Shown piece by piece: positions 24,257 to 30,302 of a stretch of DNA of 64,000 nt. Origin of the DNA: Cylindrodendrum hubeiense (lineage: Eukaryota > Ascomycota > Sordariomycetes > Hypocreales > Nectriaceae); NCBI GenBank assembly GCA_014621425.1, contig JAANBB010000009.1, positions 1-64,000 on the forward strand, given 5' to 3'. Numbering within the stretch: the stretch's first letter is position 1; each line of letters begins with the position of its first letter. The notes beneath the pieces were generated by a model. It was not told the DNA's origin, ran no database searches, and worked only from the letters and a program-made list of their open reading frames with translations. The translations under genes were made by a program, and so were the position numbers.

Positions 24257-27200
24257 TCAGTCCTTTCTGTCATATACTTCGCCAGTTCTAGCACTCGAGC
24301 CTGGCGCTCGAAGACGATCTAGAACCCAGTCTAAGCTTCTATATCCCGGGTCGTCTTTTAGCCAAGATGGAGGACGAAACATATTGGTCTCTGCGTTATA
24401 TGATTTCAGAAGCCCCATTAGCTCAGACGTGTTCTCGTTGACTGTCCGCAGTGTCCGCGCAACAAGTACCTGGTCTGTAGTGTCCACATTTTGAAACGCC
24501 AGCGTAGCCTCTGGAAAGCAATAACGTCCATGAACGAGATCAAGCGCCGTTCGGCCACGCTGGTCCGGAATGTTGGGGTTGGCTCCATGCTCAAGCAATC
24601 TCTGTGCAACTAGGTGGTTACCAACAAATGCTGCTGTGGCGAGCGCGGTCATGCCATTCGGCTCAATCGTGTTGTCGATCTGGCTCTGGGTGTGGTATTT
24701 TCGCAGCAGCTCGGACACCATGATTCCGGTAATCTCGGTGGCTTGAAGTAACTCTGAGATGTGTGGGACAAGTAGATGGAAGGCAGAGTAGCTGTTACCG
24801 TCCCGTTCAAATTCGACGAAGCCGTCCGATCCAACTCGGTCGGGGAGACTCAATAAGAATTTGACTCTCTGCAATGCGTTCCGGGTATGAGTAGTAAGCA
24901 TTTCCCCAAGAATAGTTCTCTTTGGTTTGAGAGGAAGTCTGTCTCTGTTTGCGCCTTGATCGTAGAGATACCTCGCAACGGTCAAGTTGCCGCAGTAGAT
25001 TGCCATGCCAAATGCGCCCAGAACCTCGTCTGTAGGATCCACAGGAATACCAGTACCAAGGATAGTCTTGACGAAGAATATATCGTCCGTCTCCTTGGAA
25101 GCCCGTTGTAGAGGTGTCAACCCATTGGCATCGACCGTCGTCAGGCTCGCCCCCGCATTCAGGAGTGCTAAGAACATGGCGCGGTCGTGGTGAGTGATTG
25201 CCACGAAGATAGCCGAGCCTCCATTGGATAATTTCCCAACCGAGGCATCAATCTCATTGTAGAAACCCAATTGGAGACCAGAGACCATGATATCCGCGCT
25301 GCATTGGTGATATGCCGTGGCAAAAACAGCTGGCATCTTGAAGTGCCCCAGTTGCAAAGCCGCTTCCAAAACCGCGTCTGTAGTAGCCCCATTGTCGAGG
25401 AGCGCCTTGATGGTTAATCTGGATTCTTCTTCAAATCCAACTCCACTGTTGAGAAGTCGTGCCCACCGAGAGAATCCTTTCACAGCCTCGAACAGTGGAC
25501 GAACATGGACTGGATCTCCAGTAACCATGGGTTTAGGCAAGTTGACAATCCGACGCACAGATCCCTCCTCGAGGAGTCGCGCCACTATTGACGAGTGAGA
25601 TTGGCGGCAGGAAAGATCGAATGCGGACATTGGAATTGCGACGCCAGGAGCTGTTTTGATTCGAAATGTGGCATCGGCGCCACGCTTGATCAAAGCTTCG
25701 ACAGCAGACAGACGGTTTTGCATAATGGCCCAGTATAACGGCGTATGCTCCAATGCACCGCTGTCTAATATATTGATTCCATGCAGAGATATGCTTATAC
25801 CAACGGCAAGAGCATTCGGATCGGCGCCGTTTTTGCAAAGCAGCGATGCGATAGTTTCATGATCGCTGTCGGGAAAAGAACAGAGCCAATGTAGAGGTGT
25901 CACCCCATTTGCGCCTGCAATGTTTGCGAGGCTGCCGCCGTCTTTGTTTTGTAGCATGGCCTCGATTATCCGTCCGCGACCTAACCTAGCTGCTGTCAAT
26001 ACAGGGGTCTCGCCATTTTCAAGCGTCTCCTGTAGCAGGTTTGGGTACCGGTAAAGACAAGAGCTGGTGGTAGCAGGAATATCCTCAACAATGCTCCACA
26101 GAAGCAGGCGCCGGGTTTGCTCCATCGTATACTCGTCTTGGGACAAGGACAGCTCTGCTGCCCATGAATCGATGGTTATACCAGCCTTAGCCATCTCTTT
26201 CTCTTTATCCATTTGCACCAGTCTGGCTACATCCGAGGGCCAGTCAGCCTCCAGCTTACGGCGTGCAACAGAGTTGCCAGCCTCGGCGGAATCAATGAGC
26301 CAAGTCCGGAGGGTTTCTTGATCAGGAGCCCCTGATTTGGCGATATGACAGAAGGCATTGATGTAGACTGTTCTAGCCATTTCATACCCAAGATGAGCCG
26401 CCTTGACAACATAGTCTGCAGCAACATCAAGGTCGTATTGAACCCCCAATTCATTCACATATGCGCAACTGAGACTCAGAGCTGCCATCGCCTTTACCGC
26501 ATCATCTTTTGAACTTGATAGAATGTCCTTGAGGCTTTCCACTATTGTTACTTGGACATGCCATGGGGTTTTCTGTAGAATGTGGGAGTGTGGAGCAAGC
26601 TTTGAATTGGTTAGTCATGCCTAAATAATAAATAGATAAATGGCCATCAGTACCTGTGGGACAAACTCATGATTTCGGTAAAAGCGTAAATGGGATGGAT
26701 CTTGTCGGAAGATTTCACTTTCACTTGTTAGCTGTCGGTCATTTTTTGCATGGCAGTTTTGGTACCTTGGGGTTAAAGCATGCTTAGGCCCAGGCAGTAG
26801 GCCTGCACATTCTAAGAGCAAATAGAGCGGCCCCTTCCCAAAGAGTGGTTTTCCATCATGGTTATCTTCAGTTCCGGAGAATTTCTCGATAAATATAGAT
26901 AGCTCCTTTTGTAGCTTCGACTTTAATTGCAGTCGTAGAAGAGGCAGAAGTGGTGTCTGCTCCGCGTCGATGCTTGAGATATAGCAGTCGAACATAAGTG
27001 GCATGAATCGGGAGATTAGAGGCCCCAAAGTTTCAGAATGGAAATCCAACTCCGTTGCCCCGAGTTGCTGCTCTGTACACAACGTAATCAGGCTTTGTAA
27101 AGTATTCTGCTCGCCATCATGTTCAAAAGAGTCAGCGGAGCCGCCCTCCGGTGCTAATTTGCGAAGTGATGCCAGAGCATCTCTCAGGCCGTGACTAGGA

Positions 27201-28721: not shown

Positions 28722-30302
28722 ATGGCGAATGATGTGGTTGATTTCCAGCTGGGGGCTGCCGGACTCGGACTTGGCGCCTTCAGTGGGGTCCTCGATGTCC
28801 TATCCACCTGCTCCAAGCTGTATGGCCTTTGGAGGTCACTTCGCGGCCTTGACGGCTACCTAGGGCTCCTCCGTGCAAAACTCATCCTCCAAGAAGCATT
28901 GCTAGATCAATGGCAGCGAGACTGGCTATCGTTCACTGTTTCTGGGAAAGTCGCTCTCCAAAAGCAGCGACTGCTTAAGGTGCACCAGAATGCTGTTATC
29001 GTCTCACTGGAGGTGGTTCGGTCACTGCTTGAGTCGCTAGAGCCCCTCCGTGAAGCATCGAAAGCACCCGAGAGTGCGCTCGAGCGTCTGCAGCTGGCTG
29101 CCGGCGGTGCTACCGACTGCGACAAGACCTTGGGGCAGATCAGCTCAATGCTAAACGACCTGTATCGACTGCTGCCTCCCGCAAATCCCAACGTCGAGGT
29201 ATCTCAGACGGTGATGTCGTTGGAGTATATCGGCTGCCAAGGCATGCCTCACTGCGGGGCCGAGAAAGATGTTGGGCTGGGCTCTGAAACCTTCAGCAGA
29301 GCAATGACATTTAGACAACTTGGACAAGACCTAGAAAAGGACCTGGAAGACAGGATATCGGCGTTCAAGCACACACTGCCGACTGCGGAGTTGACGATGG
29401 CCCCAGACAGGGTACGGATTACCGCTAACGACGAAGCGTCCGGCGGATTTCGCAGCTTTGGCACTCTAGACTCAAAAACACCCGTGGTAGTCGAGTGGAA
29501 AAAGTACGACCTAAACTGGAAGGGACAGAAAGGCATCCGACTCAGAGGGAGGATACAGAACATCGCACGGCTCCTCCATGCCGACTCAAAGCCAGACGAG
29601 TTGCTCACCCTCAATTGTCTAGGCGTCTTCGACGACTATGAGAAGAGTAGATACGGCCTCGTTTTTGCATTGCCTACCGGCGCCGAGGTTGATGTTGAAA
29701 TGCGCTCGATGAAATCCCTGCTCGATCAACCAACGCCGGAGACACTCCCGACGCTTGGCGATCGGTACCGCATCGCATACTCGCTCACGCTATCCTTGGC
29801 CATCCTCCACGCATCTGGATGGCTTCAAAAAAGTATCCGAAGCCACAACATCATGTTTATCATCAAAGCTGGACGACCAGTCTGGTCAAGGCCATACCTG
29901 GTCGGCTTCGATTTCTCACGGCCCGATTCCAAGGACGAAGTCTCGGAGAAGCCAGAGCAGAGCGTGCGCTTCAATCTGTACCGACATTCATCAGCCCAAG
30001 GCATTCCCGGCGAGTCTTTCCGCAAGTCGTTTGACATATACAGCCTTGGCGTTGTGCTTTTAGAGATCGGCCTCTGGCGGTTGGCGTGGAGTTTTCGGGG
30101 TGATGATACCAACGCGAAAAAGGTACAGAGCATTTTTACAAGTAAAGCCACCAGTTGGCTGGGGCATTTCATGGGCGTGGGTTATCGAGATGCCACACTT
30201 AAGTGTCTAAATGGTGATCTGGGACAGGGGGATGATTCGGTAGTACGGGCCTTCTATATAGAGGTGGTTGAGATTATGGGCTCCTTGGCTGAGTCACAGT
30301 AG
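28722..30302 (+). CDS. HeLo-domain pseudokinase (MLKL-like layout), putative cell-death effector
   Basis: A single-exon 526-residue protein. Residues about 8-125 match the HeLo helical-bundle pattern: a Gly/Leu-rich helix (GLGLGAFSGVLDVLSTCSKL), then LRAKLILQEALLDQWQRDW. HeLo bundles (HET-S, HELLP) insert in membranes through the N-terminal helix and are structurally akin to the MLKL and RPW8 four-helix bundles. A helical linker follows. Residues about 250-520 are a kinase-like domain with VVVEWK (Lys260 region), a degenerate catalytic loop GWLQKSIRSHNIMFI (no HRD Asp), GFDFSRP in place of DFG, and FDIYSLGVVLLEIG as helix F. It is a pseudokinase. HeLo-kinase proteins of this type are known in ascomycete STAND/cell-death repertoires. 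The divergent active kinase next door is a candidate activator. Confidence 0.85.
   Translation: MANDVVDFQLGAAGLGLGAFSGVLDVLSTCSKLYGLWRSLRGLDGYLGLLRAKLILQEALLDQWQRDWLSFTVSGKVALQKQRLLKVHQNAVIVSLEVVRSLLESLEPLREASKAPESALERLQLAAGGATDCDKTLGQISSMLNDLYRLLPPANPNVEVSQTVMSLEYIGCQGMPHCGAEKDVGLGSETFSRAMTFRQLGQDLEKDLEDRISAFKHTLPTAELTMAPDRVRITANDEASGGFRSFGTLDSKTPVVVEWKKYDLNWKGQKGIRLRGRIQNIARLLHADSKPDELLTLNCLGVFDDYEKSRYGLVFALPTGAEVDVEMRSMKSLLDQPTPETLPTLGDRYRIAYSLTLSLAILHASGWLQKSIRSHNIMFIIKAGRPVWSRPYLVGFDFSRPDSKDEVSEKPEQSVRFNLYRHSSAQGIPGESFRKSFDIYSLGVVLLEIGLWRLAWSFRGDDTNAKKVQSIFTSKATSWLGHFMGVGYRDATLKCLNGDLGQGDDSVVRAFYIEVVEIMGSLAESQ

Follow-up and report, generated by a model that had tools for sequence, protein, structure and literature searches.

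Linked kinase-ankyrin and HeLo-pseudokinase genes in Cylindrodendrum hubeiense: a candidate fungal cell-death module of partly RIPK3-MLKL-like design

Could a fungal protein kinase and the pseudokinase-bearing protein encoded next to it form a cell-death switch, as RIPK3 and MLKL do in animals? This question is raised by a locus of Cylindrodendrum hubeiense (Nectriaceae), located on a stretch of 64,000 nucleotides (JAANBB010000009.1, positions 1 to 64,000; hereafter the window) that is part of contig C788 of the 47.5-Mb assembly. Here, a gene for a kinase with ankyrin repeats and a gene for a HeLo-pseudokinase, in which an N-terminal HeLo-type helical bundle precedes a pseudokinase domain, face away from each other. 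A sequence-only reading had proposed that they represent a fungal counterpart of RIPK3 and MLKL. This proposal was partly supported by the present analysis. Both divergent genes are real and their outer coordinates (24257 and 30302) were right, whereas the intergenic region (28313-28721) spans 409 bp between the two ATGs and not 313 bp. We consider it fairly probable that the pair is a two-gene module of regulated cell death, in which the kinase would switch the pseudokinase and thereby free the HeLo bundle.

The neighbourhood of kinase and HeLo-pseudokinase genes exceeds chance within this genome. Apart from itself, the HeLo-pseudokinase matches 16 loci there, 12 of which have a kinase within 6 kb, including eight in head-to-head orientation (C1, C401, C390, C500, C786, C79, C152 and C634). 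The remaining four are looser neighbours, namely C712 and C14 (on the same strand, 3 and 4 kb away, respectively) and the tail-to-tail loci C523a and C357. Assuming uniform placement over 47.5 Mb, about 3% of loci would be expected to have a kinase nearby and about 0.8% to have one head-to-head. No kinase was found within 6 kb of any of 30 control loci (10 HeLo-only and 20 DUF7580-only), giving Fisher p values of 5e-8 (near) and 5e-5 (head-to-head) for loci that, being paralogous, are not independent of each other. Kinases were taken from 136 matches (124 scored of 259 candidates) and 30 non-self matches of the window kinase, which were merged into 120 loci; those of C401 and C500 come solely from the window-kinase matches. 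When only the Pfam kinase list was used, a kinase was near at 10/16 loci and head-to-head at 6/16 (p 2e-6 and 9e-4, same controls). C523b was scored as lacking a separate kinase because its kinase sits in the same frame, and C131 showed no kinase when the 3.1 kb upstream of it were inspected by eye, an inspection that did not extend to C46 and C788:189776.

The best three non-self genomic matches of the window kinase (C1, C401 and C390) and the sixth (C500) all face relatives of the HeLo-pseudokinase, and these four are kinase-ankyrin genes too. Ankyrin repeats are also present in the kinases of C786 and C523a, and none were detected in the frames scanned for the C79, C152 and C634 kinases. 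Several other genes were observed around these loci. The fourth match of the window kinase (C224:163200-166400, L076) faces an NPHP3_N/NACHT gene (E 8.4e-27) head-to-head, not a HeLo-pseudokinase. The same-strand neighbour at C14 (L073 983-4949) is apparently an HSP70-kinase gene, since an HSP70 match (E 5.2e-111) is followed by a kinase-domain start (E 9.8e-8) that continues in the next frame. A frame near the C634 pair (L067 4003-4530) contains an IBR half RING-finger domain (E 1.3e-9).

Linkage in relatives, which had been put forward as a check of the proposal, was also observed. Both proteins were returned for ten locus-tag sets of other genomes spanning Fusarium, Dactylonectria, Ophiocordyceps, Colletotrichum and Tricladium, and all ten pairs are located on contigs of identical listed size; linkage was judged here from locus tags and listed contig size, without strand. 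Tags are positional in eight sets. They are consecutive in six of them (NM208 g6414/g6413, on a contig of 18,841 bp; NW762 012622/012621; ACHAPU 000874/000875; CDD80 381/380; CDD82 3127/3126; and CSOJ01 14417/14416, on a contig of 24,559 bp), two apart in CDD81 (1466/1468) and twelve apart in CP532 (3358/3370). The EDB81DRAFT and BGZ60DRAFT tags are non-positional, and the Dactylonectria macrodidyma and Tricladium varicosporioides pairs share contigs of 1,538,279 and 1,552,491 bp, respectively. Outside the ten are HeLo-pseudokinase matches for which no kinase was returned, namely those of F. chuoi, F. lateritium ACHAPI, F. austroafricanum, F. odoratissimum, O. unilateralis, three Verticillium matches, C. 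plurivorum, Pseudogymnoascus V500 and distant matches; their partner kinases may be hidden by clustering, length limits or candidate selection, or may be truly missing.

At two loci the two domains are fused. In one 853-aa frame (C523 112696-110138), a pseudokinase of the HeLo-pseudokinase family comes after a kinase that looks active (HHDLRPENIL, DFG), and one 866-aa frame (C357 173867-171270) encodes a kinase (HFDLAPRNIL, DFG), a helical stretch and a pseudokinase. The helical stretch of the latter has a weak HeLo match (E 0.005, below cut-off), and HeLo exceeds the cut-off in neither frame. Such fusions provide classical evidence for joint action of kinase and pseudokinase. In addition, kinase similarity was correlated with pseudokinase similarity (Mantel r 0.44, one-sided p 0.001) across 13 loci, made up of the two fusions and 11 loci with a neighbouring kinase, among them C712; part of the correlation stems from two closely similar couples, C152-C634 and C357-C523. 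Between loci, the compared domains share only ~18-45% identity. If both genes, being of the kinase fold, came from old tandem or segmental duplications, their adjacency might be functionally meaningless, and paralogous pairs may indeed be copied as units, so that the genomic loci would not represent independent events. However, adjacency has persisted despite such divergence, orthologous pairs are present in Fusarium and its kin, Ophiocordyceps, Colletotrichum and Tricladium, the control loci have no kinase nearby and two loci are fused. Such neutral linkage appears very improbable to us.

What does the HeLo-pseudokinase gene encode? It consists of one exon, lies on the plus strand (28722-30302) and encodes 526 aa. 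For the N-terminal HeLo-type bundle of the sequence-only reading, Pfam gave a HeLo match (PF14479, residues 14-115, 28761-29066; E 1.5e-5, 25.3 bits, cut-off 23.2), with the full structural model placing the helical bundle at about residues 21-150. HET-s was the best PDB match of the family profile, with the match falling on the N-terminus (E 8.7e-10). As to the predicted resemblance of the first residues to a HeLo/MLKL bundle, MLKL executioner-domain entries were among the best structural matches, although unrelated helical bundles score alike and the model of the isolated domain is only moderate (predicted local distance difference test 61). With this isolated model, Foldseek returned nothing at E <= 1e-3 (MLKL 6zvo at rank 19, E 0.99), and no MLKL entry was among the best 50 matches of the full model, which are dominated by the kinase fold. 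The N-terminal hydrophobicity is only mild.

The bundle is followed by modelled linker helices resembling a 'brace' (residues 158-167 and 189-214; 29193-29363) and by the pseudokinase domain (residues 222-526; 29385-30299). In the latter, QKS replaces HRD at residues 369-371 and GFD replaces DFG at 395-397, and a sub-threshold DUF7580 match (PF24476, E 1e-4, 22.5 bits, cut-off 27) covers residues 327-497. MLKL comes first among the kinase-fold profile matches by whole-sequence E-value, level with LIMK1. In an alignment of the window protein with 47 of 83 matches, 47 of 48 sequences lack the catalytic Asp and all 48 lack DFG. Judged from these residues, the C-terminal domain is, as first proposed, a pseudokinase, like that of MLKL in its loss of the catalytic Asp and DFG. 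Its activation-loop segment (29916-29963) contains the conserved Ser399, Ser408 and Ser414, which are candidate switch sites.

A pseudokinase of this kind might also activate or scaffold the kinase, with HeLo only anchoring or oligomerising the protein and ordinary signalling, not death, as the output. JAK and RAF-KSR are examples of pseudokinases as activators or scaffolds. Polypeptides joining an active kinase to a pseudokinase exist in the two fusions, both without HeLo over the cut-off, and three of the head-to-head pseudokinases have no HeLo match. On the other hand, HeLo scores above the cut-off in 10 of 17 genomic matches, window included, and the HeLo domain of HET-S acts on membranes in cell death (PMC12881547). 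We regard an allosteric signalling pair of this type as rather improbable.

The kinase gene lies on the minus strand and has two exons encoding 1324 aa. Exon 1 (28312-26654) starts with the ATG at 28312 and contains an active protein kinase domain (Pfam match 28021-27392); an intron of 81 nt (26573-26653; GTACTG...GACTAAC...CTACAG) separates it from exon 2 (26572-24257), which encodes a pre-repeat region and ankyrin matches within about 26029-24536. The spliced model gave an unbroken alignment (query 1-1308 or 1-1314) to all four orthologs tested. The repeat fusion first described was retained for ankyrin (Ank_2, E 2.7e-29), which is certain, and not for Sel1: the pre-repeat region is Sel1-like by resemblance only, as no Pfam match was found in the window kinase (whole frame at E up to 0.1; a 257-aa piece at E up to 1). 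The C500 paralog has a weak Sel1 match (E 6.7e-5, 23.8 bits, below the cut-off of 30.7).

The catalytic residues are intact; those originally numbered Lys135, Asp239 and DFG 261-263 become Lys103 (28006-28004), Asp207 (27694-27692) and DFG 229-231 (27628-27620) when counted from the ATG. The larger numbers and the smaller intergenic gap fit a start taken at a TTG 32 codons upstream. We aligned 45 of the 46 matches P0084-P0129, including the deposited protein of the window; P0123, listed without a kinase domain, and P0130-P0142, which are not full-length relatives, were left out. In this family HGD shows no variation, Lys103 occurs in 44 sequences, the remaining one having a gap, and the DFG Asp likewise occurs in 44. 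By this alignment, the window kinase keeps its active site. This bears on a further explanation, in which the HeLo-pseudokinase is kept inactive by the kinase or by its ankyrin part and is set free once the kinase is lost or captured, as in guard or toxin-immunity-like systems and perhaps in allorecognition. Linkage, fusion and correlated similarity are as compatible with inhibition by the kinase as with activation, and two-gene clusters are known in fungal allorecognition (PMC12881547). However, pure restraint needs no kinase activity, and the catalytic residues have been kept in nearly all of the 45 sequences. Restraint is, in our opinion, unlikely.

A specific kinship of the kinase with RIPK3 was not seen. 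In a phmmer comparison with solved kinases, JAK1, EGFR, LRRK2, FLT3, ULK1, Aurora A and RIPK1 score alike among the best 60 of 1875 matches, RIPK1 standing amid this broad mix and not ahead of it. A RHIM model exists in Pfam. Scans of both kinase exon frames at E up to 0.1 gave no RHIM match, the motif being short and easily missed. General Pfam scans likewise revealed no NACHT or NB-ARC domain in the kinase-ankyrin partner, and a NOD-like receptor (NLR) was not encountered as the partner gene.

The deposited protein for this gene, G7Z17_g1092 (P0084, 1347 aa; window 22842-28312), is probably an annotation chimera, because it matches the spliced model to residue 411, skips a stretch, rejoins through the ankyrin part and then runs at its C-terminal end into the downstream gene 3 and beyond. 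Gene 3 (22842-23983, minus strand, two exons, 342 aa) directly follows the kinase gene and resembles a kinase fold that has degenerated strongly (PK_Tyr_Ser-Thr, E 0.15). It was not supported as a conserved third member of the module: none of 1867 protein candidates matched at E <= 1e-3, and one genomic paralog (C224:155337-156029, 53%) lies about 7 kb from the kinase/NACHT pair of C224.

How might the two proteins work together? In the cell-death module that we consider fairly probable, the ankyrin-carrying kinase would be the sensor and activator, turned on by something perceived, probably via the ankyrin array. It would then engage its linked partner, most simply by phosphorylating the conserved serines of the degenerate activation loop. 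Phosphorylation would relax the grip in which the pseudokinase and the linker helices keep the N-terminal HeLo bundle, and the freed bundle could oligomerise and attack the plasma membrane, with cell death as the presumed outcome.

The domain order of MLKL is N-terminal helical bundle, linker helices and pseudokinase. The fungal pair shares with RIPK3-MLKL an active kinase and a separate protein with these three parts, including a G-F-acid motif in place of DFG. It differs in that the genes are adjacent and divergent, the kinase has ankyrin repeats, no RHIM and no special RIPK similarity were detected, and phosphorylation is only proposed. Plant MLKL proteins, to which PMC12881547 refers, likewise consist of a HeLo/RPW8-like bundle and a pseudokinase; we know of no genetic linkage of theirs to an activator kinase.

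Within fungi, PMC12881547 offers several parallels. In the HET-S/NWD2 and HELLP/PNT1 clusters, a HeLo or HeLo-like executioner also adjoins its activator gene, but activation there comes from an NLR that signals by amyloid templating, whereas the present executioner candidate bears a pseudokinase and has a kinase as its neighbour. Also mentioned are fungal HELL proteins that carry kinase or pseudokinase domains; these have the same kind of architecture as our executioner gene, and no linked partner kinase is described in the part consulted. In gasdermin/protease two-gene clusters, an enzyme with sensor repeats adjoins the pore former that it activates, but this involves a protease instead of the proposed phosphorylation, and another pore former. 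We found no report in which a HeLo-pseudokinase is paired with a kinase gene, either in the open-licence PubMed Central (PMC) literature, which excludes preprints and most subscription papers, or in the consulted parts of PMC12881547, PMC10197012, PMC5485727, PMC9815663 and PMC12258605; the same open-licence literature yielded no mention of DUF7580.

Two other genes in the window were observed. A 1199-aa frame (2445-6041, minus strand) has a C-terminal CHAT domain (PF12770, E 2.5e-16); a two-gene cluster in which a CHAT protease activates gasdermin is reported for P. anserina in PMC12881547. At 61333-62553 (plus strand), frames that match NACHT_N (E 0.04) and NPHP3_N (E 5e-4) weakly might belong to an NLR-type gene.

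In the literature accessible to us, fungal necroptosis-like death has so far been described as NLR and amyloid signalling acting on HeLo proteins. Amyloid motifs do not act at equivalent steps in fungi and mammals (PMC5485727), and work on the extent of conservation between necroptosis and fungal death has been called for (PMC12881547). We can only tentatively suggest, with some doubt, that fungi carry a complete death relay from kinase to pseudokinase to membrane bundle as repeated gene pairs and fusions, in which case RIPK3-MLKL logic would be older than animals or invented twice, and the parallel, separately tuned copies in one genome might constitute an immune or allorecognition repertoire. 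A linked kinase and HeLo-pseudokinase would supply a candidate phosphorylation step and make the question of conservation testable in laboratory fungi. They would also provide natural kinase-pseudokinase pairs, two of which are already fused, in which the control of membrane bundles by pseudokinase switches could be worked out.

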